Source of the DNA: Rhodospirillales bacterium BBD 1991-14
GTDB lineage: Bacteria; Pseudomonadota; Alphaproteobacteria; Kiloniellales; Kiloniellaceae
DNA: 64,000 nucleotides
Assembly: GCA_001657395.1 (NCBI GenBank)
Contig: LYSY01000001.1
Location: 1 to 64,000 of the forward strand
Direction: 5' to 3'
The first letter of the stretch is position 1. Each line of letters begins with the position of its first letter. Below, piece after piece: positions 20,591 through 55,490 of this stretch. Below the pieces are notes generated by a model. The model worked only from the letters and a program-made list of their open reading frames with translations, was not told the DNA's origin and did no database searches. A program made the translations under genes and the position numbers.

Positions 20591-20808
20591 CTGAACGCCA
20601 AGACCTGCGCGGAGGCACCGCTGCGGGACAGTAAACGCCTGCACTTTGATGCGCGTTCAGAGCAGGCTGTTGGTCATCATCCGGCAGCTTGAGAGGCTCT
20701 CACTCCGAACCGGTACTCCAGTTAAACTGCTACAGCAATCGAATGTCGGTCTCGGTGGTTGCGGGCCCCCGCAACCCATAAATCTCCCTGGAAACCCAGA
20801 GGGCCGAT
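20591..20808. repeat. Dispersed structured intergenic element, copy E1
   Basis: It lies between convergent genes. An 8-bp stem CTGAACGC (20591-20598) / GCGTTCAG (20653-20660) is followed by the conserved block GCAGGCTGTTGG. A perfect 9-bp hairpin GGTTGCGGG / CCCGCAACC comes next (20757-20776), then a degenerate terminator-like hairpin (about 20784-20803). Long stretches are shared with the copies at 35.2 and 45.0 kb. No credible ORF is present in this 329-bp gap. Confidence 0.75.
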
Positions 20809-20825
20809 CTCTACAGGGTCGAGCG

Positions 20826-21665
20826 TCATTTTGGATCGCCAGGCCGGACCGGCGACAAGGTGTCATAGCCCGCATAGGGGTGAACCGTCACGGTTTTGTC
20901 GGTCAGCAACACCACATCATAGGACGGATGGGCGGCGACGAAGTCCGGCTTACCTGACTGGTGCAGGTCTAGCGCGATATGCTGGCAGGTGCTTTGCGAG
21001 ACGGAGAAGGGGATACCCCACAGACTGCCCGAGACCGGCAAATGCATATGGCCGAACAGCATGTGGCGCACATTGCCTTGACGCGACAAGACGGCCAACA
21101 GCCGTTCCGGCTCCAGCAAGCCGAAGGCGGCGAAGTTGGGCACGTGCAGATGGGTGGGCGGGTGATGCATGGCCACGATGACGGGCCTTCCGTCCGCGCC
21201 CGTCAGTTGCGCAGCCAGCCAATCGAGGCGCCCACCATCCAGGCTGCCATGGACACTGGTCGCATCATGGCTGTCGACCACGACGATGCGGTAGCCGCCG
21301 GCATCGAACGTGGTTTGGACAAAACCGTACTCGTCCAGATGGTCGCAGCCAAACACGCGGACGAAAGCTGCTCTGTTGTCGTGGTTGCCCAGTGTCAGAT
21401 GAACCGGGATTGTCACATCTGCCAACAGCTCTTTCAGGGCCTCATAGGCAGCCACAGTACCGGAATCCGTCAAGTCCCCCGTCAAACAGATCGCGGCCGC
21501 GTCGGGATGTGTCGCCTGGGCGTGGGCAAGCGCACCCGCGAGCCGCGCAGCCGGATCGAGGCCGAACAGCGTCTCGCCTGGCGCCACAAGATGCGGGTCG
21601 GTGAAATGAAGGATCTTCGTCACGATTTCGCAATGCATGAGGGACGGTCCGGTCTTGTTGATCAC
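20826..21665 (-). CDS. Class III metallo-phosphodiesterase (GpdQ/CpdA-like)
   Basis: 279 aa calcineurin-like metallophosphoesterase. All binuclear metal motifs are present in order: TDPHL near the N-terminus, GDLTD, GNHD, MHHPP and GHMH. The protein is close in length and motif spacing to GpdQ glycerophosphodiesterases and CpdA cyclic-nucleotide phosphodiesterases. It is the last gene of the Ugp-like ABC operon, which favours hydrolysis of an imported phosphodiester such as a glycerophosphodiester. No signal peptide is seen, so it should be cytoplasmic. The start is uncertain: the longest frame opens with GTG at 21665, an ATG lies at 21638, and neither has a clear ribosome-binding site. Confidence 0.85.
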   Translation of the reverse strand: MINKTGPSLMHCEIVTKILHFTDPHLVAPGETLFGLDPAARLAGALAHAQATHPDAAAICLTGDLTDSGTVAAYEALKELLADVTIPVHLTLGNHDNRAAFVRVFGCDHLDEYGFVQTTFDAGGYRIVVVDSHDATSVHGSLDGGRLDWLAAQLTGADGRPVIVAMHHPPTHLHVPNFAAFGLLEPERLLAVLSRQGNVRHMLFGHMHLPVSGSLWGIPFSVSQSTCQHIALDLHQSGKPDFVAAHPSYDVVLLTDKTVTVHPYAGYDTLSPVRPGDPK

Positions 21666-21686
21666 GCCGTCGTTTGACAGATTGGT

Positions 21687-22964
21687 CTAGTTCACAAGCA
21701 GAGCGTTGGTTGCCGCGACAAGCTGTTCCAGCCCCTCCTCCGGTGACAGTAACCCGCGCTGAACCTGGTCAATAATCTCGCGTTGTGCGCGCCAGACCTC
21801 CACACCGTTCGGCCCGGGGTAGCCGTACCAAGGACGCGCCTGATCCATCTGGGTCAAGACCGTCGCGTAATTGGGGTTGTCCGCGAAGAAGTCCGTCAGC
21901 GCTTCGCCGGCCTGACGGTTGGTCGGCATGTATCCGGTCACCTGAACGATGTCGGCCTGTGCCTGCGGGCCGGTTACAAACTTCACATACTCCCAGGCCA
22001 GTTGCTGCGTATCGTCGTCTTGCGCCAAAATGGCAACCGCGTTGCCGCCTGTTGGCAAGCCGCCATCATCGGCCGACACCGGAAACGGTGCGGTCCGAAT
22101 GTCGAACCGGCTGCCGACAGCCTCGGTGAAATTGGCAACACCGGACGGAGAAGCGATAAACAGGCCAAGTTTGCCGGCGAAGAATTGTTGTCGGTACGGG
22201 TCCGGCGTCGTGGAGACGTTCATATCGGTTTCCTCGGCCAGCCGGCGCAGAAGACGCAAAGCTTCGAGGCCCGTCTCGTTGTCGAAGCCGGCACCGGTCT
22301 CATCGGAGTTCAGGATATCGCCGCCGAGGCTGAGGATGGTCGCCTGCCAGAACCAGTCGCCTGGGATAGAACTGACCGAAAAGTCCATCCCGTCAATATC
22401 GTCGGCGAGCGCGCCGATGGCCTGGGCCAGTTCAATCACGCCGTCCCAGTCGGTCGGAAAGGCGTCCGCGTCAAAACCCGCCTCTTCGACCAGATCGGCA
22501 TTGAAATAGATCACAGGCGTGGAGGCGTTGAACGGGATCGCGTATTGCGTGCCTTCGACCTGCCCGAGCGCCAGGAGGGCTTCACCGTAGTTGGCGTCCA
22601 CCCAATCCTCGCCTCCGGCGGCCATGAAGGGCTCCAGTGGAACGGCCTGGCCGCGTGGTTCCAGCGTTTCGACCATCGGGCGCAGCACGCTGAAGCCGGC
22701 GAAGTAAACGTCCGGCAGATCGCCGACAATGCCAGCGCGGATAACCGCCAGATGCGCTTCCTGATAGTTCGGCGGCGGCACCCGAAACTCCACCGTGACA
22801 TCGGGATTCGCCGCCATGAAGGCCTCGGCGAGTGGCTCGTGGAACCTTGCATGGCCTGGCCAGGCATGCATGACTTCCAGCGTTGTCTGCGCGCGGGCCT
22901 CGGTGGAGAAGCAGAACGCCACCAAGGCAACAACCGCCAAGGATGCGCGTGATCGGAGCTGCAT
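21687..22964 (-). CDS. ABC importer solute-binding protein (UgpB-like, family 1)
   Basis: 425 aa from an ATG with AGGAGA upstream; a longer reading to 23048 lacks that site and buries the signal peptide. Residues 1-26 are a Sec signal ending ARA. The mature protein has the family 1 sugar-type pattern (LEVMHAWPGHARFHEPLA near the start, a Gly/Pro-rich hinge and a long C-terminal helix). The tail resembles UgpB-type proteins (GYMPTNRQA, then WYGYPGPNG). It should capture the substrate in the periplasm for the two permeases upstream in the operon. A glycerol-3-phosphate-like or phosphodiester substrate is inferred from the adjacent phosphodiesterase. Confidence 0.87.
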   Translation of the reverse strand: MQLRSRASLAVVALVAFCFSTEARAQTTLEVMHAWPGHARFHEPLAEAFMAANPDVTVEFRVPPPNYQEAHLAVIRAGIVGDLPDVYFAGFSVLRPMVETLEPRGQAVPLEPFMAAGGEDWVDANYGEALLALGQVEGTQYAIPFNASTPVIYFNADLVEEAGFDADAFPTDWDGVIELAQAIGALADDIDGMDFSVSSIPGDWFWQATILSLGGDILNSDETGAGFDNETGLEALRLLRRLAEETDMNVSTTPDPYRQQFFAGKLGLFIASPSGVANFTEAVGSRFDIRTAPFPVSADDGGLPTGGNAVAILAQDDDTQQLAWEYVKFVTGPQAQADIVQVTGYMPTNRQAGEALTDFFADNPNYATVLTQMDQARPWYGYPGPNGVEVWRAQREIIDQVQRGLLSPEEGLEQLVAATNALLVN

Positions 22965-23044
22965 CGGTTTCGTCTCCTGTGGTTGAAGTATGCGGCGATG
23001 CCGCGCCAGATACGGATCCGCCTCTCGATTGGCTGCGCGGCTGC

Positions 23045-23875
23045 TCATTTCAGGCCGCTCATCGATACGCCCTGAACAAAACGACGTTGCGCAAACAGAA
23101 AGAGCAGCAGCAGGGGTGCAGTGATCATTGCTGCAGCGGCCATCAGAGGACCGAGACTGTCACCTCCTTCTGCATCGCGAAAGAACAGGATGCCAAGCGT
23201 CGGCGGTGCAAGGTCGAGTGACGAAACGACAATCAGCGGCCAGTAGAGATCGTTCCAGTGGTAGGACACGGAGAAGATCGAAAAGGCAGCCACCGCCGGC
23301 AGCGAGGCTGGCAGGATGAGCCGCCATAGGATTGAGGCCTCCGAAAAGCCGTCAAGCCGCGCCGCCTCGATCACTTCGTCCGGATAGCCGCGCAGGAACT
23401 GACTGAGGAGCAGGATCGCAAAAAACGAAACGACAAAGGGAATGACGAGCGCGAAGTAGCTGTCCAGAAGGCGCAGCTCCGCCAACCCGACAAAGAGCGG
23501 CAGCGCCACCGCCTGAAAGGGTACTGTCAGGCTGACGACGATCAGCACCGTCAAAAAGCCCTTACCACGAAAGCGCAGTTTGGCCAGGGCATAGGCGCAG
23601 GGCAAGGCCGTGGCGATCTGGAAGAACAGGATCGTCCCGCAGACGATGACCCCATTGGCAAGAAATCTCAGTATGGGGGTCTCTGTCAGCGCGCGGGCAT
23701 AGTTTTCCGCTGCCCGCCAGTCGCCCACCCAGAACGTGGACGTCAGATCGAAGGCCTCGCCAGAGGCGCGTGCCGAAGTCAGCACCATCCAGACAAATGG
23801 GAAAACGGAAAACACGACCGCGACCCACAAAAACCCATGGGCGGCCATAGATGAAAGGCGCGGCAGTCCCTTCAT
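23045..23875 (-). CDS. ABC importer inner-membrane permease (UgpE/MalG type)
   Basis: 276 aa with six predicted transmembrane helices. The MalG-type EAA loop reads EAARLDGFSEASILWRLILP at about residues 165-185 and contacts the ATPase. The start overlaps the stop of the preceding permease by four bases, which suggests translational coupling. It pairs with the product of 23872-24816 to form the channel. Confidence 0.92.
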   Translation of the reverse strand: MKGLPRLSSMAAHGFLWVAVVFSVFPFVWMVLTSARASGEAFDLTSTFWVGDWRAAENYARALTETPILRFLANGVIVCGTILFFQIATALPCAYALAKLRFRGKGFLTVLIVVSLTVPFQAVALPLFVGLAELRLLDSYFALVIPFVVSFFAILLLSQFLRGYPDEVIEAARLDGFSEASILWRLILPASLPAVAAFSIFSVSYHWNDLYWPLIVVSSLDLAPPTLGILFFRDAEGGDSLGPLMAAAAMITAPLLLLFLFAQRRFVQGVSMSGLK

Positions 23876-24816
23876 GCCGCCCTCCGGCGCCGGGCGTACC
23901 AGAGCTGAAGCAAGGAGATGGTTCCCACCATGGCTATGAAGATGAGCGCCAGTGTGCTGCCGTAACCAACACGAAAGTAGGCGAACGCTTCGAGGTACAT
24001 CTCATAGAGGATGACCTCGCTGCGTCCGGCCGGGCCACCCTGGGTGAGAACCACCACAAGGTCGAAGACCTGAAAGGCGCGAATCGTGGTCAAGAGAACG
24101 ACGACGAGCGTCGTGGGCCCGAGCAACGGCCAGGTAATGCGGCGAAACTTCTCCCAGCCACAGTCGGCTCCATCTAGCGCCGCAGCTTCGTAGAGGTCCT
24201 TAGGGATGGCCATCAGACCGGCCAGAAAAACGATAAAGCAGAAGCACATATGCTGCCAGACGCCGATCAGCGCCAGCGAGGGCAACACAGCGCCGGGGTC
24301 GGAGAAGAAGTCGATGGTGGGCAGACCGATCGCCGCCATCAGGCCGTTGACCGGTCCGATCCGGCCGTGCAGCACGAAGCTCCACACAATCGCCATCGCC
24401 GCCATGGTCGTCGTCAGCGGCAGGAAGATCATCAGCTCATAGAATCGGCGCGTGCGGGTTCTGGACACGACGAGAAGGGCAAAGAAAAGCCCCATTCCCA
24501 CTGACACCGGCACGACCATGGCGGCAAAAAGCAGAGTGTTGGAAACAGCACGTTGAGCGCCCCGGTCTTGCAGGGCGCTGGCGAAATTGTCTAGTCCCAC
24601 CCAGTTGAAGCTCAACGCGCCGAGTTGATAGTCGGTCAAGCTGAGTGCAAGAACCGCACCGACGGGAGCCAGCGTGGTGATCACCATCAGGATGACGGCC
24701 GGCGCGATGCAGATATGAGCCAGCCGTTCCGACCGCCTGGCCTGCCAGTGTGCGCCGTGTGTGCGGCCGGCCGACATCGTCAGCGGAGCAGGGCCTACCG
24801 CTGGAACCTCACTCAT
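23872..24816 (-). CDS. ABC importer inner-membrane permease (UgpA/MalF type)
   Basis: 314 aa with an N-terminal cytoplasmic stretch and six helices. An EAA-like loop (YEAAALDGADCGWEKFRRITWP) precedes the last helices. It overlaps the ATPase stop by four bases and the next permease start by four bases, so three transporter genes are tightly coupled. It acts as the second half of the channel. Confidence 0.92.
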   Translation of the reverse strand: MSEVPAVGPAPLTMSAGRTHGAHWQARRSERLAHICIAPAVILMVITTLAPVGAVLALSLTDYQLGALSFNWVGLDNFASALQDRGAQRAVSNTLLFAAMVVPVSVGMGLFFALLVVSRTRTRRFYELMIFLPLTTTMAAMAIVWSFVLHGRIGPVNGLMAAIGLPTIDFFSDPGAVLPSLALIGVWQHMCFCFIVFLAGLMAIPKDLYEAAALDGADCGWEKFRRITWPLLGPTTLVVVLLTTIRAFQVFDLVVVLTQGGPAGRSEVILYEMYLEAFAYFRVGYGSTLALIFIAMVGTISLLQLWYARRRRAA

Positions 24817-26012
24817 GAGGTAACCGTCAGGTTTGGGCGTTGCGCGGCTGGAACCGTGCGTAGCGGCAACACCTGGCCCTCAGCGGCAAACACATGAACG
24901 CCGTGGATGCCGGCGTCCAAAAAGAACCGGTCATTCAGGCGGCCCGCCGCCCGCGCGGATTCGAACTCCGCGGCCCGCATTTGGACGGCGACCCGATGGT
25001 TCCTGTCGCCGATACAGCACCACGCCAGCACTTCCGGGCCCAGAAGCTCGGTACGATCAAGCCGGGCCCGGAATCGCAGCGCCGGCTCGCTGTCCGGCTT
25101 GGCTAAGAAAAGAGCCTCCGGGCGAACACCGAGGCTTAATCCACTTTGGTTGGGTAGCGTGATCAGCACGCTGTTTTCAGCAGCCGGAACAAGAAGGCCA
25201 CCGACAGCGTTGCTGCGGGCATCCAACAGGTTGATAGAAGGTTGCCCGATAAATGTCGCCACGTCTCGATGAGCGGGGGACCGGTAGATATCGGCTGGCG
25301 TAGCGTGTTGCAGAATATGACCACCCATCATAAGTGCGATGCGATCCGACATGGTCATCGCTTCAACCTGATCGTGCGTCACGTATAACACCGTGGCGCC
25401 GAGACGCTTGTTTAGCGCCACCAATTCGGAGCGCATGGTAAGGCGCAGCTTGGCGTCGAGGTTGGACAACGGCTCGTCCATCAGCATCAGTCTGGGCTCG
25501 CGCACGATGGCTCGGGCAAGCGCCACTCTTTGCCGTTGCCCGCCGGATAGCTGGCTCGGGCGGCGCGCCAGCAAAGCGGCGATTTCGGTGAGCCGCGCAA
25601 CACTGTGAACGCGCTCTGTAATCGTTGCCTGGATGCCGCGATGACCTGGCCAGTAACGGCCGACCAGCGGCAGCCTCTGGCCTGTTCCCATCAGGCCCAT
25701 GACCAAAGGCATGGCGATGTTCTCGGCCACCGTCATATGCGGATAGAGCGCGTAGGACTGGAAAACCATGGCGATGTCGCGCGCCTTGGGCGGCAAATGG
25801 TCGATGCCCTCGCCGTCAATCGCGACAGTTCCCTCGGTCTGCGCCTCGAGCCCTGCCACGATGCGCAACAAAGTAGACTTGCCGCAGCCCGATGGCCCAA
25901 GGAGGCTGACAAAGGCCCCTCGGCGCACATCGAGATCGACAGCGCGCAGGACGGCGGTGTCGCCAAACGATTTGGAAACAGCCTGCAGGCTGAGTGCAGG
26001 GAAGGTGGTCAT
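24813..26012 (-). CDS. ABC importer ATPase (UgpC/MalK type)
   Basis: About 399 aa. The Walker A motif is GPSGCGKST, the signature LSGGQRQR, and the Walker B region LMLMDEPLSNLDAKLR. The H-loop (YVTHDQVEAM) and a C-terminal TOBE/MalK-like regulatory domain are also present. An extended frame reaches 26063, but the ATG at 26012 has GGAAG eight bases upstream and starts exactly where homologous proteins begin (MTTFPALSLQAVSKSFG). An insert of about 20 residues (LVMGLMGTGQRL...) lies between the Q-loop and the signature, which is unusual for the family. It powers the import system of this operon. Confidence 0.92.
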   Translation of the reverse strand: MTTFPALSLQAVSKSFGDTAVLRAVDLDVRRGAFVSLLGPSGCGKSTLLRIVAGLEAQTEGTVAIDGEGIDHLPPKARDIAMVFQSYALYPHMTVAENIAMPLVMGLMGTGQRLPLVGRYWPGHRGIQATITERVHSVARLTEIAALLARRPSQLSGGQRQRVALARAIVREPRLMLMDEPLSNLDAKLRLTMRSELVALNKRLGATVLYVTHDQVEAMTMSDRIALMMGGHILQHATPADIYRSPAHRDVATFIGQPSINLLDARSNAVGGLLVPAAENSVLITLPNQSGLSLGVRPEALFLAKPDSEPALRFRARLDRTELLGPEVLAWCCIGDRNHRVAVQMRAAEFESARAAGRLNDRFFLDAGIHGVHVFAAEGQVLPLRTVPAAQRPNLTVTS

Positions 26013-26110
26013 GCGATCTTCCGTCGTTCTGTCCACTGTCACCATATTGGAGCTTAATTTCATATTTGTGAAAAGTGGTGAAAAAAACCATATAAACCGA
26101 AACTGCAGCG
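26013..26110 (-). promoter_or_regulatory. AT-rich candidate promoter/operator upstream of the Ugp-like ABC genes
   Basis: This gap is far more AT-rich than its surroundings. On the minus strand it holds two adjacent copies of TTTTCAC. On the plus strand it also holds the inverted repeat TTTCA-TATTTG-TGAAA (26058-26073). RpiR-family proteins bind short inverted repeats of this kind, so autoregulation or operon control by the adjacent RpiR protein is plausible. No start site is proven. Confidence 0.4.
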
Positions 26111-26126
26111 CCGTTGGGTCGTCCGC

Positions 26127-26930
26127 TCACACGGGGCGAAGGCGGTCGGCGAGATACTCCGATAGAAGCGCCATAGAGGGCACCAGGCGCGCTGAGCCAT
26201 CTGCCGGCCAGGGGCCGATCTTGCTGAGGAGGATGCAGTCGTGCGCCGCGGTGGCCAGCGTGCTATCGCCGCGCGTGGTGATCGCGACCGTCCGTGCGCC
26301 GCTGGCCCGCGCCTGATCAATGAAGGCCACCGTTTCCTCGGTCACGCCGCTATAGGAGATGCCAATGGCAAGGCCGCCCTTGTCGAGGGTGCTAGCCAGT
26401 CCTTTAGCGACCAGGCCGGAACGCGGTACATGCGCCGTGATCCCGAGCCAGATGAGCCGGTTGGCTAACAAGTCGGCACAAACCGCAGAGACGCCGATGC
26501 CGAAGACTTCCGTGCGGCGGGCGGCTGCCAGTCTCTTGGCCAATGACGCAACACGGGCCGGGTCGATTAGGTTGACCGTATCGCTTAGTGCGGCTTGAAA
26601 GGCTTGGCCAAGTGTCTCCAGATCGGGATCGAGATGCTTTTCGCCTATGCCTGGCGCCTGCGTCAGGCGCATGGCTTTTTCGCGCTCGATCTCCCGCGCC
26701 AGGGCCAGCTTGAAGTCGCGGAAGCCCTCGAAGCCAAGCAATTTACACAGCCGCATGATCGTTGCTTGGCCGCTATTGGCGTTGCGTCCTAACTCACCGA
26801 TCGACTGGTGAACGACCTTATCGGGGTTTTGTGCGATGTAGAGCGCGACCCGCGACAGGGCTGTGGGCGCCTCGTCCACAGCGCGGTAGATGGCATCGAT
26901 AACACTGTGCTGCACGGCCTTGGCGGTCAT
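26127..26930 (-). CDS. MurR/RpiR-family transcriptional regulator
   Basis: 267 aa from the ATG at 26930, which has GGGAG seven bases upstream; a longer frame to 26987 has no such site. Residues about 10-85 form the RpiR helix-turn-helix (SIGELGRNANSGQATIMRLCKLLGFEGFRDFK). Residues about 115-255 form a SIS sugar-phosphate-binding domain, including GISYSGVTEETV. Members sense phosphosugars. It precedes the Ugp-like transporter in the same direction, so it probably responds to a phosphorylated product of the imported compound. The 241 bp upstream (26931-27171) hold no recognisable gene. Confidence 0.9.
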   Translation of the reverse strand: MTAKAVQHSVIDAIYRAVDEAPTALSRVALYIAQNPDKVVHQSIGELGRNANSGQATIMRLCKLLGFEGFRDFKLALAREIEREKAMRLTQAPGIGEKHLDPDLETLGQAFQAALSDTVNLIDPARVASLAKRLAAARRTEVFGIGVSAVCADLLANRLIWLGITAHVPRSGLVAKGLASTLDKGGLAIGISYSGVTEETVAFIDQARASGARTVAITTRGDSTLATAAHDCILLSKIGPWPADGSARLVPSMALLSEYLADRLRPV

Positions 26931-27171
26931 GCCTGGTCTCCCGACGTGTGAAGACGCGACACTATCAGCCGCCGCCGCCGCCGTCATGGTTGCAGGTTGG
27001 CCAGACGGCTATCCTCGTGACAATACCCGATGGCGTGTCGCAGAAGTTGGGGACACCGGGGCGTTGGCGGTCAGTCGTAGGATAGGCCGGCAGCGGCGGG
27101 TGGCGTATCAGGCGAACCCCCAGACTGCGCCTTGCATACCTTCTTTGCCGATCTCCGACGTTTTTCCCCGC

Positions 27172-28641
27172 TCAGATGCGGCCTCCTGCCTGGAGATATC
27201 TGGCTCGCCCGCTCGTGACGACCTGCAGAGACTGGTGGTAGTTTCCATTGGAAACCTCGTAGACTTGCCGATGAGACTCTGCCGCGGGTTCAGAAAGGGC
27301 CTGGCCGATCATCTCGGTGCCGGCTTCGACTCCAAGGATCGCCAAAACCGTTGGGGCGATGTCGATGATCCCGGCCGCCCGGCCATCCTCCACGCCGGCA
27401 GTAAAGCCCGGCCCCTGTACAATGAGTGTATGGCAGAGTTCGGCACGGCTGAGGCCGCCGTGCATGGTCCTGCGCGGTGGTGTACGCCCGCCGATGGAAG
27501 GCCCTACTCCGGTCAGGCCGACCGCCGTCAGATCGTCGCGGACCATTGTTGTGAACAGCAACTCGGCCTGGCGCGGATGGGCTGTGCCCGCGATTTCCAG
27601 GGAGAGCGTGCCGGGGATCATTCCCTCGGCGGAGCCATTCTCGCCGTTGGAGAAAAGGCCGCCGATGTAGTCCTGTTCCTGGAGCCAGGCTGCCACCGCT
27701 TTCAGGCGGCCCGGGTCATCATCGCGGACCGAGATGGCACCGTAGGTCCAGCCGGTGACGGCCAGGGGATCCTTGCCGAGATCGCCATGGATCATGTGGC
27801 GGCAGGCATGCCCGTGTCCGGACAGAAGATCGTAAAGCTCGATCTCCTCAGAAACCGTGGCATGGCCATGATCGGACGTGAGAACCAGGGTATAGGCGTC
27901 CCGGTCCGGCTGTGCGTCGAGCCAATCGAGCACGCGCCCGACCGCGGCGTCGGCCGCGGTGAGAGCCGCATCGCTGTCTTCGGAGGCGAAGCCGCGGAAA
28001 TGCCAGGTTTTGTCCGGTTCATTGAGCCAGAGCACCGCCAAGCGCGGGCGGATCTGGTCCAGCACGTGGTCAACGAAAACCCTGGCGGCGTAGTGCGTCG
28101 ACGCGACGTCGGGGATCGTCCGCTCGGGCAGTGGGCCGAAACGTTCCACGACCTCTACCAGTTCCGGTGGCTGTTGCGCTTCGCCCGCAGCGGAAAGGGC
28201 GCAGACCCAATGGTCCTGCTCGGCCGCGCGGGGGACGAGCAGATGTGCCGAGGCAGCTCCGCCGGCGTGCACCATGGCCATGCTCAACCCCGCATCGGCC
28301 AGGCGGTCCGCGAAGGTTTCGACACAGACGAGGGGCGTTTTGGATCTTTCCTCGAAAGCTCGGATCGTGGCCATGCTGTCGAAGTCGATGACCCGTTCCC
28401 GGTTGGCTTCCGGCACATAGAAGGCATTGCCGACCACCCCGTGGCGCGCGGGTGTTGCGCCGGTTGAGAGCGAAGCGGTGGCCGTCCGTGTCATCGAGGG
28501 AAAAACCGTCCGCGCGTTGGAAAAGAGGCAGCCGCGCTCTCTGAGGGCTTGGAGGCCGGGCGTGCGCTGCGGATCGATGCTGTCGGGTCTCAGCCCGTCG
28601 AGGATCAAAAGGACAACCCGGGATTCCGGTTCAGTCGACAT
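27172..28641 (-). CDS. Alkaline-phosphatase-superfamily phosphodiesterase (NPP-type)
   Basis: 489 aa with an ATG preceded by GAAGGA. The N-terminal LLILDGLRPDSID provides the first metal Asp. The TVFPSMTRTATASLSTG segment supplies the nucleophile Thr/Ser of type I phosphodiesterase/nucleotide pyrophosphatases. Later segments, LTSDHGHATV and HGGLSRAELCHTL, carry the remaining Asp/His metal ligands. There is no signal peptide, so hydrolysis is likely cytoplasmic. It is the distal gene after a Dpp/Opp-type importer, in the same direction, 58 bp from the last permease. It could be a phosphodiesterase, phosphonoacetate-hydrolase-like enzyme or sulfatase relative; the substrate is not determinable here. 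Confidence 0.82.
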   Translation of the reverse strand: MSTEPESRVVLLILDGLRPDSIDPQRTPGLQALRERGCLFSNARTVFPSMTRTATASLSTGATPARHGVVGNAFYVPEANRERVIDFDSMATIRAFEERSKTPLVCVETFADRLADAGLSMAMVHAGGAASAHLLVPRAAEQDHWVCALSAAGEAQQPPELVEVVERFGPLPERTIPDVASTHYAARVFVDHVLDQIRPRLAVLWLNEPDKTWHFRGFASEDSDAALTAADAAVGRVLDWLDAQPDRDAYTLVLTSDHGHATVSEEIELYDLLSGHGHACRHMIHGDLGKDPLAVTGWTYGAISVRDDDPGRLKAVAAWLQEQDYIGGLFSNGENGSAEGMIPGTLSLEIAGTAHPRQAELLFTTMVRDDLTAVGLTGVGPSIGGRTPPRRTMHGGLSRAELCHTLIVQGPGFTAGVEDGRAAGIIDIAPTVLAILGVEAGTEMIGQALSEPAAESHRQVYEVSNGNYHQSLQVVTSGRARYLQAGGRI

Positions 28642-47739: not shown

Positions 47740-48831
47740 GTGTTCGACGGCTTTGAGACGCCCTGTCTGATCCTGGACACGGTGCGCCTGCGCCGCAATG
47801 CGGCACGAATGCTGCAGCATTGCGATGCCCAGGGGGTGCTTCTGCGCCCGCATCTCAAAACCTCGAAGTCCGTTGATGTCGCGAAGATCGCAACCGGTGG
47901 ACGCATGTCCAGCGTGACCGTGTCGACTCTGGTCGAAGCCGCGCATTTTGCCCGCGCCGGCTTTGATGACCTGCTTTATGCCGTGGGCATCACGCCAAAC
48001 AAGTTCGACCATGTCGACGGAATCATGGCTGCAACCGGGAAGGCGGTGACGCTTTGCCTGGACTCGCCCGAGATGGCGCGGGCTCTGGCGGCAAGCGATC
48101 TGACGGCCCCGGTCCTGATCGAAGTCGATTGCGGAGAACACCGCGGGGGCCTGTCAGCCGACTCGGACGCCCTGATCGAGATCGGACGGATCCTGGGTTC
48201 GCAGTTGCTGGGTGTCCTGAGCCATGCCGGCCATTCCTATGCGACGGACAGAGTGGCCGAGGTAAAGCGCGTTGCAGCGGCCGAGGTCGATGCGGCAACG
48301 ATGGCGGCCGGGCGCCTCCGCGAGGCCGGCATGGCTGTCGAGGTCGTCAGCATCGGATCGACGCCAACGGTTCTTCATGCTGGCAGCCTGGAGGGCATTA
48401 CCGAGGTGCGGGCGGGCATCTATCTGTTCTACGACCTCTCGCAGTTCGGCAGAAACATCTGCAGCCTGGAGGACATTGCCCTGTCGGTGCTGAGTACGGT
48501 GATCGGACACAACCGGGCCGCCGGTGTTATGACAATCGATGCCGGTGCCCTGGCAATGTCCAAGGACATCGGCGCCAACACGTTTTTGCCCAATGCCGCT
48601 TACGGCTGGATCTGTAAGACGGAGACGATGAAACCCACCGGCCTGGCGGTCACCGCGGTTCATCAGGAACATGGCACCGTCGCGGTAGATGACCCGGTCT
48701 GGTACGAGCGCCTGCCCATCGGCTCCACCGTGCGGGTTCTGCCCGGCCATGCCTGCCTGACTGCCGCCGGCGGATACGGCGCCTACCATACCACCTGCGG
48801 CGCGGTTTGGCCGCGCGTCGACGGTTGGTAA
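47740..48831 (+). CDS. D-threonine aldolase / D-serine dehydratase-like PLP enzyme
   Basis: 363 aa from a GTG immediately after the previous stop. An alanine-racemase-type N-terminal barrel carries the PLP Lys in LRPHLKTSKSVDVAKI. A C-terminal D-serine-dehydratase-like domain provides a His/Cys metal site (VLPGHACLTAAGG). The family cleaves D-3-hydroxy-amino acids or deaminates D-serine using a divalent metal. It overlaps in function with the PLP enzyme upstream and converges on the peptide-importer operon. Confidence 0.87.
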   Translation: MFDGFETPCLILDTVRLRRNAARMLQHCDAQGVLLRPHLKTSKSVDVAKIATGGRMSSVTVSTLVEAAHFARAGFDDLLYAVGITPNKFDHVDGIMAATGKAVTLCLDSPEMARALAASDLTAPVLIEVDCGEHRGGLSADSDALIEIGRILGSQLLGVLSHAGHSYATDRVAEVKRVAAAEVDAATMAAGRLREAGMAVEVVSIGSTPTVLHAGSLEGITEVRAGIYLFYDLSQFGRNICSLEDIALSVLSTVIGHNRAAGVMTIDAGALAMSKDIGANTFLPNAAYGWICKTETMKPTGLAVTAVHQEHGTVAVDDPVWYERLPIGSTVRVLPGHACLTAAGGYGAYHTTCGAVWPRVDGW

Positions 48832-48842
48832 GGGCGGATCCC

Positions 48843-50459
48843 TCAGCGCAGCATCTCCAGACTCGGAACCGAAGCCAGCAAGCGTCTGGTATAGGCCTGC
48901 TGCGGATCGGCAAAAAGCCGGTCGGTGCGGGCTTCTTCGACGATTCTGCCCTTGTGCATGACAACGACGCGGTCAGCCATCTGCTCGACGATCGCAAGGT
49001 CATGCGTGATGAGGACGAGGGTCAGGTTCAGCTCCACCCGCAGCTCGGCAAGGAGACTGAGAATCTGGGCTTGAATAGAGACGTCGAGGGCGCTCGTCGG
49101 TTCGTCGCAGATGACGATCTCCGGGCGTAGAATGAGGGCGCGGGCGATCGCGACGCGCTGGCGCTGACCACCCGACATCTGGTTCGGATAGGCGTGGGTG
49201 AAGCGGGCCGTCAGGCCGGTCTGCTCCATGACACGGCGGACCATCTCCTGCCGTTCCCGCCGCGATCCGATGCCGTGGATGTCCAGCGGCCGCCGGATGA
49301 TCTGGCTGACCGACATACGCGGGTTGAGCGATCCGTAGGGATCCTGAAAGATCGGCTGGACGATCTGGGCGCGCTTGACCTGGAGCACTGCGGCCACGTC
49401 CACGCCATCGAGCGTGATGCGTCCGCGGTCCGGTGCTTCCAGGCCCAGGATAAGGCGCGAGAGGGTCGATTTGCCTGAGCCGCTTTCGCCGACCACCGCG
49501 AGCGTCTCGCCCTTGCCGACCGTCAGGGAGACGTCCTGCACGGCCTCGATCCGGCGCTTGGACCCGAAGAGGCCGCGCTTGACGTGGTAGGTCCGCGAGA
49601 CATCTTCGACCGAGATCACCGGCTCACGCTCCTGCGTGGCGACGCTGCGCCCGCTCCCGCGCGGGATGCTGTCGATCAGCTTCCTGGTATAGGGGTGCTG
49701 GGGGGCACTGACGACCTGACGGGTCGGGCCCTGCTCGACCACTTCGCCCTTCAGCATGACGAGAACGCGGTTGGTGAAGTTGGCGACCACGCCGAAATCG
49801 TGGCTGATCAGGATGATGGCGATTCCCAAGCGCTGCTGCAGGTCCTTCAGCAGATCGAGGATTTGCTTTTGGATCGTCACGTCCAGGGCCGTCGTGGGTT
49901 CGTCGGCGATCAGTATGTCCGGCTCGTTCATCAAGGCCATGGCGATCATGATGCGCTGGCGCTGGCCGCCGGAGAACTGATGGGGATACTGGTTGAACCG
50001 CTCCTCGGCATCAGGCAGACCGACCGCGTTCATGAGTTCCAGCGCCCGCGCCTTTGCCGTGCGCGATGCGCCGCCATGCAGTGTCATCATCTCGCAGAGC
50101 TGCCGGCCGACGGGATAGACCGGATTGAGCGAGGTCATCGGCTCCTGAAAGATCATGCCCGCCCTTTGCCCGCGGATGTCGGTCGCCAGCATCTTCTCGG
50201 AGACGGTCAGGAGATTGTGACCGCAGAGCTCCAGGCGCTCGGCGCTGCGCTCGGCCGCCGAAGGGAGCAAGCCCATCAGGGCATGGGCCGTCATCGACTT
50301 GCCCGAACCGCTCTCGCCGACAATGCCCAGGGTCTCTCCCTTCTTGAGGGCGAAGGAGACGCCCTTGACGGCTGTGAGTGCGCCGCCGGGAATCGGCAGG
50401 GTAACGGTGAGGCCCTCGACCTCCACGGTGGTCGGCAGTGCCTTGCGGTGCTCCATCAA
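48843..50459 (-). CDS. Fused double ABC ATPase for peptide import (DppD-DppF/GsiA type)
   Basis: 538 aa with two complete ATPase domains. The first has GESGSGKS, FSGGQRQR and [12 protein letters not shown]; the second has GESGSGKST, MSGGQRQR and VICDEPTSALD. The first ends in a short oligopeptide-type region (HPYTRKLIDSIP). Both H-loops are present (LISHDFGVV, LITHDLAIV). A single fused protein replaces the two ATPases seen in the other peptide importer at 30.5-32.5 kb. It overlaps the start of the permease gene by four bases in the operon. Confidence 0.93.
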   Translation of the reverse strand: MMEHRKALPTTVEVEGLTVTLPIPGGALTAVKGVSFALKKGETLGIVGESGSGKSMTAHALMGLLPSAAERSAERLELCGHNLLTVSEKMLATDIRGQRAGMIFQEPMTSLNPVYPVGRQLCEMMTLHGGASRTAKARALELMNAVGLPDAEERFNQYPHQFSGGQRQRIMIAMALMNEPDILIADEPTTALDVTIQKQILDLLKDLQQRLGIAIILISHDFGVVANFTNRVLVMLKGEVVEQGPTRQVVSAPQHPYTRKLIDSIPRGSGRSVATQEREPVISVEDVSRTYHVKRGLFGSKRRIEAVQDVSLTVGKGETLAVVGESGSGKSTLSRLILGLEAPDRGRITLDGVDVAAVLQVKRAQIVQPIFQDPYGSLNPRMSVSQIIRRPLDIHGIGSRRERQEMVRRVMEQTGLTARFTHAYPNQMSGGQRQRVAIARALILRPEIVICDEPTSALDVSIQAQILSLLAELRVELNLTLVLITHDLAIVEQMADRVVVMHKGRIVEEARTDRLFADPQQAYTRRLLASVPSLEMLR

Positions 50460-51346
50460 TGGCGGGCCTCCGGCGCCGCCACGTCCCTCAGGCCGTCGCC
50501 CATGAGGTTGATGGCGATAACCAGCAGGAACAGGGCGATGCCGGGGATCGTCACCAGCCAGGGCTGGAAGAACATCGCGTCCTTGCCCTCGGCGATCATC
50601 AACCCCCAGGACGGAGTGGGTGCCGGAATACCAACGCCGAGAAAGCTGAGGGCCGCTTCCGCCAGGATGGCGCTGCCGACCTCGTAGGTGAAGATCACAA
50701 GGATATGGCTGGAAAGGTTGGGCAGTACGTCCCGCCAGACGATGGAAAGCGTGTCGGCGCCAAGCGCCTTGGAAGCGGTGACGAACTCAAGCTGGCGGAT
50801 GCGCTGCGTCGCCGCCCGGGTCACCACAAGATAGAGGTTCCAGTGGAGAAAGCCGATCACGCAGATGACCACGGTGACCGAGGGGCCGATAAGGAACACC
50901 AGAGCCATGGCGAGGAGCAGCGAGGGCAGGGCAAGCTGGCAGGAAAGCACGAAGCTGACCACCTGATCCACCCGCCCGCCCAGGAATCCTGCAGCGACGC
51001 CCAGGGCCACGCCGATCACGCAGCCGATCGCGGCAGCGGAGAAACCCACGATCACCGAGATCTGAGCGCCGTAGAGGAGCCGGCTGAGGTAATCGCGGCC
51101 AAGATGGTCGGTGCCCAGGGGATGCTCCCAGCTGCCCCCGGCCCAGACCGGATAGGCGAGGCGGTTGCCCAGGTTCTGCTCCGTATAGTCGAAGGGGGCC
51201 AGGAAGGGCGCCAGCAGTGCCATGGCGCCGACCACGGCGATGATCGCGGCACCGAAGATGAAGCCGCGGTGATGAACGGCGCGGCGAAGGGCGGCACGCG
51301 CCGGGTGCTCGCCGGCAAGCTCCAGGTCTGTATCGACGACCGCCAT
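50456..51346 (-). CDS. ABC peptide-type permease (DppC/GsiD family)
   Basis: 296 aa from the ATG at 51346, which overlaps the stop of the partner permease as TGATG; longer open frame upstream is out-of-frame read-through of that gene. The OppC N-terminal segment, HPLGTDHLGRDYLSRLLYG and the EAA region (GADTLSIVWRDVLPN) are present, with six helices. The C-terminus INLMGDGLRDVAAPE is typical. Confidence 0.93.
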   Translation of the reverse strand: MAVVDTDLELAGEHPARAALRRAVHHRGFIFGAAIIAVVGAMALLAPFLAPFDYTEQNLGNRLAYPVWAGGSWEHPLGTDHLGRDYLSRLLYGAQISVIVGFSAAAIGCVIGVALGVAAGFLGGRVDQVVSFVLSCQLALPSLLLAMALVFLIGPSVTVVICVIGFLHWNLYLVVTRAATQRIRQLEFVTASKALGADTLSIVWRDVLPNLSSHILVIFTYEVGSAILAEAALSFLGVGIPAPTPSWGLMIAEGKDAMFFQPWLVTIPGIALFLLVIAINLMGDGLRDVAAPEARH

Positions 51347-52263
51347 CAGGCCAGCCTTATCCGCGGGTCGAGCCAGGCGTTCAGAAGATCCGCCAGGAAG
51401 GTGAGCATCACGAAGGTGAGCGCAAAGATGAAAACCAACATCTGCACGGTCGGGATGTCGCCGCCGATGATGCTCTCGATCGCGAGGCGGCCCAGGCCAT
51501 TGATGGCAAAAACACTTTCGGTCACGAGCGATCCGCCGAGCTTGGCCCCAAGCTGGACCGCAAGCACGCCGACCACCGGCAGCAGAGCGTTGCGCAGGGC
51601 GTGGCGCCAGAGCAGCCTCAAGCCCCGGTAGCCCTTGGCGCGCGCGGTGCGGATGTAGTCGGACTCCATGACCTCCAACAGGCCGGTGCGGGTGAGGCGC
51701 ATCACCGAAGGCACGGAGGACAGGCCCAGCACGAAGGCGGGCAGGACGAAGTGCCACCACGTATCGGCGCCGGAAACCGGAAAAATCGGAAAGGTGACCG
51801 CCAGAAGCATGATTGCCATGAGGCCGAGCCAGAAGTTCGGAATGGCCTGTGCCGCTACGGCCAAGCTCAGGGCCACCCGGTCGACCAAGGTGTTGGGATT
51901 GAGGGCGGCCGCGATGCCGAGCGGAATGGCGACGAAGATGGTTACCAGGATGGCCGAGCCCGCGAGCGCAAGAGTGACGGGAAAGTGACGAACGACGAGG
52001 TCGAGCACCGGGGTGCGCCAGTACAGGCTCTCGCCGAAGTCGCCGCGGGCGACGCCGCCCAGCCAATCGAAGTACTGGATGTGGATCGGCCGGTCGAAAC
52101 CCAACTGCTTGCGGATCAGTTCCACCTGGGCGATGTCGGCTTCGTCGCCGGCGATGGCGCTGGCCGGGTCAGTGGCGTAGTTCAGAAGCAGAAAGGTAAC
52201 GAGGCTTACGGCAAAAGCGACGAGCAACGCCAGCCCGCCGCGTTTGAGAGCATAGATCAGCAT
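51346..52263 (-). CDS. ABC peptide-type permease (DppB/GsiC family)
   Basis: 305 aa with six helices. DppB features are RKQLGFDRPIHIQYFDWLGGVARGDFGESLYW in the N-terminal periplasmic region and IRTARAKGYRGLRLLWRHALRNALLPVV in the EAA loop. It lies 70 bp downstream of the binding-protein gene. Confidence 0.93.
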   Translation of the reverse strand: MLIYALKRGGLALLVAFAVSLVTFLLLNYATDPASAIAGDEADIAQVELIRKQLGFDRPIHIQYFDWLGGVARGDFGESLYWRTPVLDLVVRHFPVTLALAGSAILVTIFVAIPLGIAAALNPNTLVDRVALSLAVAAQAIPNFWLGLMAIMLLAVTFPIFPVSGADTWWHFVLPAFVLGLSSVPSVMRLTRTGLLEVMESDYIRTARAKGYRGLRLLWRHALRNALLPVVGVLAVQLGAKLGGSLVTESVFAINGLGRLAIESIIGGDIPTVQMLVFIFALTFVMLTFLADLLNAWLDPRIRLA

Positions 52264-52333
52264 GTCTTACCGCCGCGTCCCCGGCGACCCCCTGCCATCC
52301 GGCCGAGGGTCGCCCGTGCGACTCTGCAAGCGG

Positions 52334-53860
52334 TCACTCTTTCCACTTCGCCATGAAGAGACGGGGCATGCCGTCTTCGGGCTGCACATAGACCAGGTCG
52401 TTCGACATCATGAAGTTCTGCGTGTACTTCTGCACCGGTACCCAGTAGGCCTGCTCGGCGATGTGCCTGACTGCCTGGTGAAAGCGTTTCTCGCGCTCTG
52501 CCGCATCGTAGGTCGCATTCGCGCTGGCCACGAGGTCGCTCAGCTTCTGGTCGCCGGTGTAAACACGTGCCACGTCCAGGATGAAACGGTCCGGCATGAT
52601 GGCGCCGGCATCGGGGATGGAGAAAGACCCGGAGGAGCCGTAGAATGCCGTCAGCTCACCTGCGTTGCGCGGCTTGGAGACGGACTTCACGTAACGCAGG
52701 CTCGCGTTGATGCCAACCGCCTGCCAGTAGTTGATGATGGCCTCCTGGATCGGCCGGTCGCGGGCTGCCCAGTACTCCAGATCGAAGCCGTCGGGATAGC
52801 CGGCCTCGGCCAGAAGAGCCTTGGCCTTTTCCGGGTTGTACTCGTAGGTCTTCACGTCCTCTGTGCAGCCGAACTGAACAGGCTGACAGGCCGTCCAGAG
52901 CGGCGCTGCGGTGCCGCCGGTGATGTTGGTGACGATCTCCTCGCGATTGATGGCGTAGTTCATCGCCTGGCGAACCCGCAGATCCCTGGTCGGCGTATCG
53001 GGATCGGAGCGGCCCGAGGCATCGAGGGCGACGTAGCCAACCCGCATCGAGGGCCCGGCGACGAACTGGGCGCGGCCTGTGCGTCCGACGTTCTCCGCGA
53101 TGTCGGTCGGCACATTGAAGGTCCACTGTACGCCGCCGGACATCACCTCGGCCGCCTGGGTGGAGAAGTCCGGAATCATGCGGATGACGATCTTGCCGAT
53201 GGAGGCCATTGCCTTGGGGCTGTCGCTGCGATAGCCGTCATAGAGCTCCAACTCGACCCGCTGGCCAGGCTGAAAACCGACGACGCGATAGGGACCAGTG
53301 CCGTTCACCTGGTTCTGCTGCGCATTGGGCGTCGTGACGCCCTCAACTTCATAGGAGCCCGCCTTGCGCAGTTTCGAATAGTAGCTCAGATCGTAGAGCA
53401 CCATAGCGTAGGGCTGCTTCATCGTGAAGCGGACGGTGTGGTCGTCGACGGCCTCAATGCTTTCAAGCCAGCGCCCGATTCGGGTGGCGTAGCGTGTTTC
53501 CCCGGCCTCGCTGACAATGTGGTTGAACGAATAGACGACGTCGGCGGCGGTCAGTTGCGAACCGTCGTGGAAGGTCACGTCCTGGCGCAGGTTTACCACC
53601 AGTGTCGTTTCGTCCGTAAACTCGTGGCTCTGTGCGACCAGCGGGACCGCCTGCTGAGTTTCCGGATCGACATAGTAGAGAGCGTCGTCGACGAGGAGGC
53701 CCAGAATGTCATTCTCCCGGATCGTCGAGTAAAGCCCGTCGGTCGTCTTCACTTCGCGCGGAAAGGCCGCGACCAGTGTGTCCTTTGCTTTCTGGGCCTG
53801 TGCCGGTGTGACCGTTGCAGCCAAAACCGCCGCGGCCAGAAGCGTCTGTCTCAAAAACAT
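52334..53860 (-). CDS. ABC importer solute-binding protein (DppA/GsiB, family 5)
   Basis: 508 aa with a Sec signal (residues 1-22, ending AQAQ) and GGGAGA upstream of the ATG. Family 5 landmarks are LRQDVTFHDGSQLTAADVVYSFNHI, VNGTGPYRVVGFQPGQ and DLRVRQAMNYAINREEIV. It is the first gene of the operon, divergent from the LysR regulator. Glutathione, peptide or amino-acid-conjugate uptake are all possible. The asparaginase and D-amino-acid enzyme nearby favour an amino-acid-containing ligand. Confidence 0.9.
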   Translation of the reverse strand: MFLRQTLLAAAVLAATVTPAQAQKAKDTLVAAFPREVKTTDGLYSTIRENDILGLLVDDALYYVDPETQQAVPLVAQSHEFTDETTLVVNLRQDVTFHDGSQLTAADVVYSFNHIVSEAGETRYATRIGRWLESIEAVDDHTVRFTMKQPYAMVLYDLSYYSKLRKAGSYEVEGVTTPNAQQNQVNGTGPYRVVGFQPGQRVELELYDGYRSDSPKAMASIGKIVIRMIPDFSTQAAEVMSGGVQWTFNVPTDIAENVGRTGRAQFVAGPSMRVGYVALDASGRSDPDTPTRDLRVRQAMNYAINREEIVTNITGGTAAPLWTACQPVQFGCTEDVKTYEYNPEKAKALLAEAGYPDGFDLEYWAARDRPIQEAIINYWQAVGINASLRYVKSVSKPRNAGELTAFYGSSGSFSIPDAGAIMPDRFILDVARVYTGDQKLSDLVASANATYDAAEREKRFHQAVRHIAEQAYWVPVQKYTQNFMMSNDLVYVQPEDGMPRLFMAKWKE

Positions 53861-53966
53861 GTGACCAGCGTCTCCCTGTTTGCCTGTCCCTGTATTGATT
53901 TGTTGACCATCGCTTAAGTGGCTTTCTTGCAGGCGCCCGAGTCCAATACCTTTGCGGTGCAGAGTT

Positions 53967-53981
53967 ATGCCGATACGGCAT
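53967..53981. promoter_or_regulatory. Perfect T-N11-A palindrome, likely LysR-type operator
   Basis: ATGCCG-ATA-CGGCAT is a perfect 15-bp inverted repeat with the T-N11-A spacing of LysR boxes. It lies in the 314-bp divergent gap, 107 bp upstream of the binding-protein start and 194 bp before the lysR start. The rest of the gap shows no gene; a short AT-rich stretch (TATCAATCGGATATAC, about 54000-54015) may hold a promoter. Confidence 0.6.
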
Positions 53982-54174
53982 GGCCCGGTTTACGTTGTTT
54001 ATCAATCGGATATACTGGTCGTGCTGGCGCTTTCCGATACTCGGGAGGGCAGCGGCGATGATCGAGGTGATGGGGTAACGCGGCGATGGGGCGTGCGGCA
54101 CCACAGCTTTTTTTGAATTTGATCCGGATTGCGGTCCTTGGTTGGCCGGCCGCTTCCCCAGTTGCCGTCCAGTC

Positions 54175-55116
54175 ATGGAGTTGAAGTGGCTTGAGGACTT
54201 TGTTGCCCTCGCACGGACTGGCAGCTTCAGCCGGGCCGCCGACGAGCGGAACGTGACGCAGCCGGCTTACTCCCGGCGTATCCGGGCCTTGGAACATTGG
54301 TTGGGCGTAACACTGTTCGACCGCTCTTCGTTTCCGGTCTTGATGACCCGGGCCGGCGAGGAGTTTCTGCCGCGCGCGCAGGCGATGATTGCCGACATCA
54401 ACCTTTCGAGGCAAGACCTGCGCCTCATGCACGCGCGCAGCCAGACAGCCGTTCGCATCGTGACGCTTCACACCCTAGCGCTCAGTCTGCTGCCGAGGCT
54501 TGCGGCACGCTTCGCGCGCCTCAATCCCGAGGCATCGATCTCCGTCATTCCTTCCATCCAGGACATTGCCGCCTATTTCGATTCCCTCCAGACAGGCCTT
54601 TCGGACGTCGTTCTCACCTATGAGAGTGACTTGGTCAGCTTGGATACGGCGGCCATCAACCAACTGGCTATCCTGCCGATCGGGCGGGACCGGATGATAC
54701 CCGTTGCTTCGCCATCCCTCGCTGCGGCTCTGAAGGATGACTGGCTTGATCAGGCGGAAGCACCGGTACCGGTTCTCGCCTACACCAGTTTCTCCTTCTC
54801 CGAAAAGATCGTCGCTCCGGTCTTGGCGCGGCACGCGAACCGCCTGCGCACCGTCTTCGAGAGCCCCCTGAGTGAGAGTCTGCGGCGGGTTGCGCTGCAA
54901 GGTGCCGGGGTCGCTTGGTTGCCGGCAGAGCTGATTGCCAGCGATCTTTCGGCAGGAGCTTTGGTACGTCTTCCGGGCGACCATCTTGCCCCGGAGATCG
55001 CGATCACGGCCTATCGTCTAAAGGCTCCTCGCGAAGCAATGGTCGAGGCGCTGTGGAAGCTGTTGGAGGACCGAGCAGCGCACATTGAGCCAGTGGAGCC
55101 GAGCCAAGCGCCATAA
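54175..55116 (+). CDS. LysR-family transcriptional regulator
   Basis: 313 aa from the ATG at 54175, which gives the canonical LysR start (MELKWLEDFVALARTGSFSRAADERNVTQPAYSRRIRALEHWLGV); an upstream TTG is not needed. A LysR substrate-binding domain follows. It is divergent from the peptide-importer operon and probably controls it, with the T-N11-A palindrome between them as binding site. Confidence 0.93.
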   Translation: MELKWLEDFVALARTGSFSRAADERNVTQPAYSRRIRALEHWLGVTLFDRSSFPVLMTRAGEEFLPRAQAMIADINLSRQDLRLMHARSQTAVRIVTLHTLALSLLPRLAARFARLNPEASISVIPSIQDIAAYFDSLQTGLSDVVLTYESDLVSLDTAAINQLAILPIGRDRMIPVASPSLAAALKDDWLDQAEAPVPVLAYTSFSFSEKIVAPVLARHANRLRTVFESPLSESLRRVALQGAGVAWLPAELIASDLSAGALVRLPGDHLAPEIAITAYRLKAPREAMVEALWKLLEDRAAHIEPVEPSQAP

Positions 55117-55326
55117 AGCCGCCTCCATCCTCACTTTTTCGAACTCCATGAGACTGGAGTTTGCCCTCTCCGCCAACTCAATTGGGATTAGCGGAGCAAA
55201 GCGCGAAAGCCACCGAGTTTCAGGCGCTGATATGGATTGAGGCGCATCGCGGGCGATGAAAAACCCAATTCCATGGCGCACGCTACCTTGTAGCGGAAGG
55301 GGCTACCAGCACCCGGAGGCTATAGG

Positions 55327-55490
55327 TCAGGCTGTCACAGAAAGCGATTGTTGGTTTCGGTGGTTGCAGGCTCCTGCAACCAACTAAGCCCCCTGGAAAT
55401 CCCAGGGGGCTTAGTTGGTTTCCGGAGATAGGATTGAGCACGGCAGACAGGCCGCGCGCAGCCTGCTCTGCGCAGGGTCCAATCCAGAAC
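55327..55490. repeat. Dispersed structured intergenic element, copy E4 (short)
   Basis: It holds the hairpin TGGTTGCAGG / CCTGCAACCA (55362-55383), a G-to-A and C-to-T paired change relative to E2. It also has the terminator at 55381-55419 and a tail sharing GAGCACGGC, the GCGCAG/CTGCGC stem and GGGTCCAATCC with E2. The 5' half of E1/E2 is missing or unrecognisable. The remaining gap to 55571, and 55117-55326, show no credible gene. Confidence 0.7.
55381..55419. terminator. Strong bidirectional terminator inside element E4
   Basis: A perfect 17-bp stem CCAACTAAGCCCCCTGG / CCAGGGGGCTTAGTTGG with an AAATC loop. It separates the convergent lysR and arsR-type genes. It resembles the terminator behind tRNA-fMet in layout and in its downstream bases. 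Confidence 0.85.

Follow-up and report, generated by a model that had tools for sequence, protein, structure and literature searches.

Intergenic repeats behind an initiator tRNA gene of a Rhodospirillales bacterium as probable scars of accreted serine-recombinase islands

The four gaps and their common joint

The window analyzed here is the first 64 kb (64,000 nt) of contig C1 (LYSY01000001.1) of Rhodospirillales bacterium BBD 1991-14, and it opens with an intact gene for initiator tRNA (tRNA-fMet). Downstream of this gene and on the same strand lie four intergenic gaps, E1 to E4 (20591-20808, 35203-35600, 45034-45345 and 55327-55490), in which a first-pass annotation had described ordered blocks of common sequence. 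This sharing is real, as a search with E2 recovers E1 and E3, and a sensitive blastn search recovers E4. We consider it likely that the gaps are attR-type recombination joints ('scars') left by islands that carry a large serine recombinase (LSR) and accreted behind tRNA-fMet at the end of an rRNA operon.

The core common to the gaps consists of about 40 nt of element DNA (…CGAATGTCGGTYTCGGTGGTTGCGGG) joined to the last ~12 nt of the initiator tRNA (CCCCCGCAACCA). This tRNA 3' end, or a variant with one or two changes, is present at E1-E4 and at the other joints. The joint itself is a palindrome, GGTTGCGGG-CC-CCCGCAACC, whose right half is the tRNA-fMet acceptor end. A pattern for the joint, with up to three mismatches allowed, matched 20 places in 8 of 61 genomes of the order, including six in the own genome, while a reversed control pattern had no match in the same 61 genomes. 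The bare palindrome, also with up to three mismatches, had no match in 1.3 Mb of unrelated loci. We aligned 19 of the 20 pattern matches together with the diverged E3, which gave 20 joints from eight genomes. The 40 nt that precede the joint are conserved at 0.5-1.6 bits per position; the value rises to 1.8 across the 20-nt palindrome and drops to 0.2-0.4 beyond it, so that conservation ends at the tRNA end. As a selected stem the palindrome was rejected because it lacks covariation, 282 of 500 shuffles scoring as high. CRISPR-like repeats, recognized by appearance, stand immediately before one joint (L054, about 1380-1500, on contig C2 of relative G002; same place in L231).

Around this core the gaps differ in composition (Table 1). 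E1 comprises a head, the joint and a degenerate hairpin and has no tail; E2 has a head, joint, terminator-like hairpin and tail; E3 has the same parts with a partial head that lacks the first E1/E2 block; and E4 retains the joint, the hairpin and only the last ~50 nt of a tail. The family is mosaic and has further copies in both the own genome and its relatives. The E2 gap has 11 matches in the own genome at E <= 0.01, itself included (E3 at 5e-54, E1 at 4e-43), of which four are on C1 (one far along the contig), six on C7 (all on the minus strand) and one on C16. The weaker E4 falls outside these 11 and was caught only by more sensitive blastn with parts of the gap (joint, E 3e-6; tail end, E 5e-4).

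Three of the four copies lie between convergent genes, as had been noted: SulP (+) and metallophosphatase (-) at E1, MR_MLE (+) and asparaginase (-) at E3, and LysR (+) and ArsR (-) at E4. The genes flanking E2, DeoR (-) and an aminotransferase (-), are not convergent. Nor does the family belong to known Rfam or repetitive extragenic palindromic (REP) families, its copy number being low and no gap having an Rfam match at the gathering threshold; the sole such match in the window is the tRNA. At E up to 5, nine sub-threshold Rfam rows fall across 20400-55600, four of them overlapping the E4 hairpin. On insertion sequence ends, a scan of 38 window open reading frames (ORFs) gave no match to a transposase family above its threshold; no library of such ends was searched. 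Integron-named models run on three of the seven own integrases reached at best 33.8 of 265 bits (TIGR02249) and 88.5 of 220 bits (NF040815).

Table 1. Coordinates of features in the window
Feature	Position	Strand	Evidence or content
Intact tRNA-fMet (CAT anticodon)	14..90	+	ARAGORN, Rfam
Terminator-like hairpin 3' of tRNA-fMet	92..127	+	Inverted repeat I20; terminator called by eye
E1 head, element-side (P) end, holds 8-bp stem	20591..20756	+	81% to E2 head over 178 nt, 86% to E3 over 104 nt
E1 joint GGTTGCGGGCCCCCGCAACC	20757..20776	+	Pattern match, conservation profile
Module E1-E2	20826..35089	-	Pfam: metallophosphatase, ABC transporter and solute-binding protein, RpiR regulator, phosphodiesterase, peptide-type ABC transporter, DeoR regulator
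E2 head (P end)	35203..35366	+	Sequence comparison
E2 joint	35367..35386	+	Pattern match, conservation profile
E2 terminator-like hairpin	35387..35428	+	Sequence, by eye
E2 tail core, then degenerate tRNA-fMet T-arm	35491..35594	+	Model R1, E 1e-22 (E2 is a training sequence)
Module E2-E3	35746..44656	.	Pfam: aminotransferase V, enoyl-CoA hydratase, CoA-transferase III, GntR/FCD regulator, TctCBA, MR_MLE
E3 head	45034..45128	+	Sequence comparison
E3 joint, diverged: GGTCGCGGGTCTCCGCAACC	45129..45148	+	Sequence, conservation profile
E3 tail core	45244..45347	+	Model R1, E 3e-19 (E3 is a training sequence)
Module E3-E4	45368..55116	.	Pfam: L-asparaginase II, aminotransferase V, D-serine dehydratase-like, peptide-type ABC transporter, LysR
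E4 joint GGTTGCAGGCTCCTGCAACC	55362..55381	+	Pattern match, conservation profile
E4 terminator-like hairpin	55382..55420	+	Inverted repeat I14
E4 tail remnant	55433..55482	+	Alignment; blastn 79% over 48 nt

Large serine recombinases, two-ended islands and cargo modules

Some LSR genes have a 3' end that is almost the same as the left half of the joint (...TGTCGGTTTCGGTGGTTGCGGG); it reads GTGTCGGTTTCAGTGGTTGCGGGG in relatives G042, G002 and G006. Genes for LSRs were matched 14 times in 12 of the 61 genomes, and their 3' ends were located from the match positions. In nine of the 14, the inverted acceptor end TGGTTGCGGGG is present without mismatch at -56 to +235 nt from the 3' end of the match; two end at another tRNA, and three have none, in one case since the contig stops after 25 nt. 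In G042 and G036, the sequence encoding the LSR C-terminus (...SVVAGAGFEPATFRL) runs antisense through an intact tRNA-fMet. The two genes that end at another tRNA (L113 and L116, the latter with anticodon CAT by eye) belong to the same group and run antisense to that tRNA, as if the target had been switched.

Stretches of 18-24 kb with an LSR gene or fragment at one end and a joint at the other were observed in three relatives and on the own contig C7. In G036, tRNA-fMet and the LSR gene (at about 3,450,854) and a joint (CTCGGTGGTTGCGTG followed by CCCCCGCAACCA and the hairpin, at about 3,430,792) stand 20 kb apart on one contig. In G006 (contig C53), a decayed tRNA end with an LSR gene is found at 189.2k and a joint at 165.6k, and in G002 (contig C24) the LSR end is at 6.5k and the joint at 27.3k. 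The own C7 has nt 50-77 of tRNA-fMet at 87.5k and a joint at 68.9k; at 87.0-87.2k lies a 58-residue LSR fragment that shares 79% identity with the LSR of G002. Further joints on C7, at 61.2k (another half-site), 35.9k and 3.6k, suggest that this contig holds a second array. An LSR gene adjoins the putative attL in G036, G042 and G006, while C7 has only the fragment and the window has none. Between tRNA-fMet and the LSR gene of G002 C24 (L079:577-6412) lie genes for a pPIWI-associated nuclease, an OLD-type TOPRIM ATPase and a UvrD-like helicase; the latter two we take to be a Gabija-like pair.

The upstream setting can be judged from relatives, in which tRNA-fMet closes an rRNA operon (5S and tRNA-fMet in G004; 23S, 5S and tRNA-fMet in G025). 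The window tRNA-fMet is therefore presumed to mark the end of such an operon and to serve as attB of the array; an operon upstream of it is a conjecture, because the contig begins at the tRNA. In the own assembly (G000), a search for 5S alone, with an E limit of 10 and 150 of the 275 candidates scored, had no match, so that rRNA operons may be missing from the assembly at contig ends.

From these features we infer the recombination itself, the order of events and the loss of LSR genes as follows. Islands with an LSR gene would insert into the tRNA-fMet 3' end behind the rRNA operon. Judged from the two halves, attP is predicted to be a palindrome of two similar arms, in agreement with the palindromic two-arm sites of serine integrases. 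Its LSR-side arm, P', would bring a new CCCCCGCAACCA and so rebuild the tRNA at attL, with the LSR gene terminating antisense to it. At the far end, arm P would be joined to the displaced acceptor end and the old tRNA terminator, giving attR. Repeated events would produce the order tRNA-fMet, module, E1, module, E2, module, E3, module, E4, and recombination at tRNA-fMet would account for the mosaicism of the gaps. Either the LSR genes of the window would have disappeared, or an outside LSR would have moved the islands. Since no LSR was found in the own genome, the window array is probably fixed.

Each interval from E1 to E4 contains a transport or catabolic gene set plus its own regulator. This statement rests on Pfam scans of the 38 window ORFs; a 5306-aa ORF and most of the 208 mechanically called ORFs are outside the scan. 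By sequence comparison, module E2-E3 is a transferable unit, because an 86% identical DNA copy of it (window 35777-44657) occurs in a different context in G002 and because several of the loci with the closest CoA-transferases keep the order of neighbor genes. Among the best 80 loci, in a search that may omit very near genomes, these closest CoA-transferases come from Rhodobacterales and Salinarimonas. The G002 copy stops near the edge genes of the module, and no scar was found in the preceding 305 bases or the following 1.5 kb; by eye, it adjoins a transposase-like gene. The module may have arrived via the tRNA-fMet site.

Among other window genes, a 5306-residue frame (2266-18186, +) not far behind tRNA-fMet has many glycine/aspartate-rich repeats and looks RTX-like by eye. 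Downstream of E4, Pfam domains of a molybdopterin oxidoreductase, cytochromes, a DsbD-type protein and ArsR may mark a sulfur-oxidation cluster. Apart from copies in the own genome, window genes (the 5306-aa ORF left out) had no counterparts near tRNA-fMet in the examined loci of relatives other than low-identity transporter and regulator matches.

Several observations weigh against accretion by serine recombinases. The own genome has no PF07508 match and hence no LSR gene was found in it, and the 38 scanned window ORFs include no recombinase or transposase family above cut-off, only one ABC ATPase with a sub-cut-off TniB match. The DNA beside the LSR end in G002 C24 is not recognizably tRNA. 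Beyond their last ~55 nt, the heads of E1-E3 had no match in the examined loci of relatives. Parts of module E2-E3 are matched in 15 of 23 genomes, with full cover only in G002 and pieces at 66-74% identity in the rest. GC content is uniform along the window (0.59-0.69), so that a foreign origin of the modules is not visible in it. No empty site was found, and one attempt via a flanking gene failed: gene C7:2542-3600 resembles the gene beyond one G002 joint (55%), as does its neighbor (52%), and has homologs in 53 of 61 genomes, and among 30 loci around these homologs a joint stands beside the own copy only, two others having a chance-like match with one mismatch. Finally, accretion does not account for the terminator and the whole or partial tail that E2-E4 each have behind the joint, in place of the arm of the previous island.

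Folded structures and competing explanations

The first-pass annotation had proposed a selected RNA or DNA structure on the basis of a stem that opens E1 (CTGAACGC/GCGTTCAG) and E2 (TCGAATGC/GCATTCGG). Two double changes are indeed present, T-A to C-G at pair 2 and C-G to T-A at pair 6, and pair 1 shifts from C-G to T.G. With only two sequences this covariation is suggestive only, and the stem is the weakest evidence for structure. E1 folds slightly better than shuffles (z -2.26, 3 of 200 as good). The stem block was detected only in E1 and E2, E1 alone covering it among the E2 matches listed for the own genome and 40 relatives, with a limited number of candidates scored per genome.

The part of the proposal that stands concerns the tail of E2 and E3, which covaries beyond shuffled and slid controls; the part that does not is the block common to all four gaps, a recombination-type joint. 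In an alignment (A2) of 15 chosen and trimmed copies, which excludes partial or nearly duplicate ones (E4, C16, G011, G013, one copy from G007 and the remaining copies from G004 and G010), three helices have 88.9% paired cells against 77.5+-1.3 in shuffled alignments (0/500). Pairs with double changes number 10 against 5.0+-1.3 (0/500), eight of them in helix 2, and double-change cells 28 against 8.8±2.3 (0/500), while further pair types number 18 against 14.6 (14/500). Slid structures reach at most seven double-change cells, a comparison that favors the observed structure because it was taken from one row of the alignment (G004); relatedness also inflates the shuffle tests. RNAalifold without a given structure recovered helix 2 and did not recover helices 1 and 3. 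The covariation is thus strong but not final. The E2 tail folds no better than shuffles (z -0.70), which counts against a simple RNA, and the G004 copy folds better (z -5.43).

A covariance-model search of the kind that had been suggested, made with the tail, retrieved 24 tails in 11 of the 61 genomes, spread over two families of the order and including five in the own genome; 15 of these 24 were training sequences, and the E-values are rough. The tail block recurs behind tRNA-fMet in G002, G004 and G010, i.e. in three of 25 distinct downstream sequences, and degraded tail-like versions were seen by eye behind tRNA-fMet in G015, G007 and the window itself. An acceptor end is found upstream of 12 of the 19 tails with 170 nt of upstream sequence (background 6/4000), and a T-arm (background 0/4000) and a CCA end are found downstream of 10 and 11 of the 24, respectively. 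We propose that the tail belongs to older DNA flanking tRNA-fMet and is itself delimited by tRNA 3' ends in inverted and direct copies. A more specific idea, which we hold to be doubtful, is that it is a non-autonomous miniature element of ~170-220 nt with a selected fold, its covarying hairpins enclosed by these inverted and direct ends, and that it acts as a folded-DNA or RNA site marking or promoting repeated island insertion behind rRNA operons.

Covariation in the tail helices, their occurrence in two families (15 of the 24 tails having trained the model) and the G004 copy, which opens with an inverted and closes with a direct tRNA-fMet 3' end and so builds its outer stem from them, would also be expected if the gaps were a self-spreading structured non-coding RNA or folded-DNA element that merely favors tRNA-fMet ends. 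We find this unlikely: E1 lacks a tail and that of E4 is truncated, what all four gaps have in common is the joint, and its palindrome does not covary. Moreover, the tail does not look freely mobile, because a tRNA-fMet-like end borders 20 of the 24 copies on one side or both. The family as a whole is not a mystery RNA.

Tyrosine integrases also make use of this tRNA. Two of the seven own tyrosine integrases, on C16 and C7, have their start no more than about 0.7 kb from a partial tRNA-fMet, and a third adjoins the one on C7, where two neighboring tyrosine recombinases with 49% mutual identity stand beside a tRNA-fMet fragment (L028:8244-11135). On C16 (L029:5949-11884), an Arm-DNA-bind_3 integrase lies beside nt 33-77 of tRNA-fMet with a TraD-like coupling protein nearby, possibly as part of an integrative conjugative element. 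In G004, where such an integrase also adjoins nt 33-77, a 10-kb island (L074/L075) is bounded by 215-bp direct repeats (99.5% identical) that hold the tRNA end, hairpin and tail, so that a tail is present at both ends. According to a report on Sinorhizobium meliloti, phage-related sequences at tRNA genes there carry tyrosine integrases, one of them also serine-recombinase-like (PMC11476347).

It is nevertheless improbable that the gaps are scars of tyrosine-integrase islands, which we take to be of the P4 type. Such islands cross over near the anticodon loop and leave a joint with 45 nt of tRNA (nt 33-77), whereas E1-E4 keep only about 12 nt behind an LSR-type half-site; the serine recombinase reading is preferred for this reason. 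Most improbable of all is that the gaps are decayed rRNA operon ends (5S, tRNA-fMet and terminator) from lost or duplicated operons, for although they hold an acceptor end and terminator and the window opens with tRNA-fMet, this origin is largely refuted by the conserved element half-site before the joint, which resembles LSR gene ends. Plausible by eye, a 5S or rRNA origin had also been rejected because local alignments of the gaps with 5S, with its surrounding region and with an entire rRNA operon stayed at shuffle level (z -0.9 to 1.9).

Precedents and biological meaning

The closest precedent for the accreted LSR islands is the set of ssrA genomic islands of Dehalococcoides, which, by their description (PMC3146451), are the same kind of thing. 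There, tandem metabolic islands lie downstream of one RNA gene, a short 3'-end repeat marks each boundary directly behind a conserved element motif (here about 40 nt), and a serine recombinase adjoins attL (here in relatives) while many islands, 15 in that account, have no integration module. In contrast to those islands, the target here is tRNA-fMet behind rRNA operons rather than ssrA, the LSR end overlaps the tRNA, half-site and tRNA end form a palindrome, the cargo is catabolic and transport-related, and an extra folded tail is present. With cis-mobilizable elements (CIMEs) and accretion, terms used as in the same paper (PMC3146451), the window has in common modules between att-like joints and no recombinase in its scanned ORFs; unlike in CIMEs, the attL sites of the window modules are not recognizable.

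REP sequences, bacterial interspersed mosaic elements (BIMEs) and stem-loop repeats are likewise mosaic, palindromic and intergenic, and often lie between convergent genes. REP and BIME repeats have many dispersed copies per genome, often over 100, whereas the present family has a low copy number in the own genome (the 11 E2 matches, six joints and five tails), combines a tRNA end with an integrase-type half-site and sits at an integration hotspot. In the open-licence literature, no paper was found that links tRNA-fMet, genomic islands, integrases and rRNA operons, and none with the LSR tail peptides.

Read as attR-type joints, an unexplained repeat family becomes a readable record, in which each scar would mark one gain of a catabolic module at the end of an rRNA operon. 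A group of serine recombinases is thereby named together with its likely target, tRNA-fMet, and a predicted attP/attB pair. The tail is singled out as the part with real covariation and no known role. If it does act as a site that promotes insertion, the array would be a slow, large-cassette 'integron' for catabolic modules.

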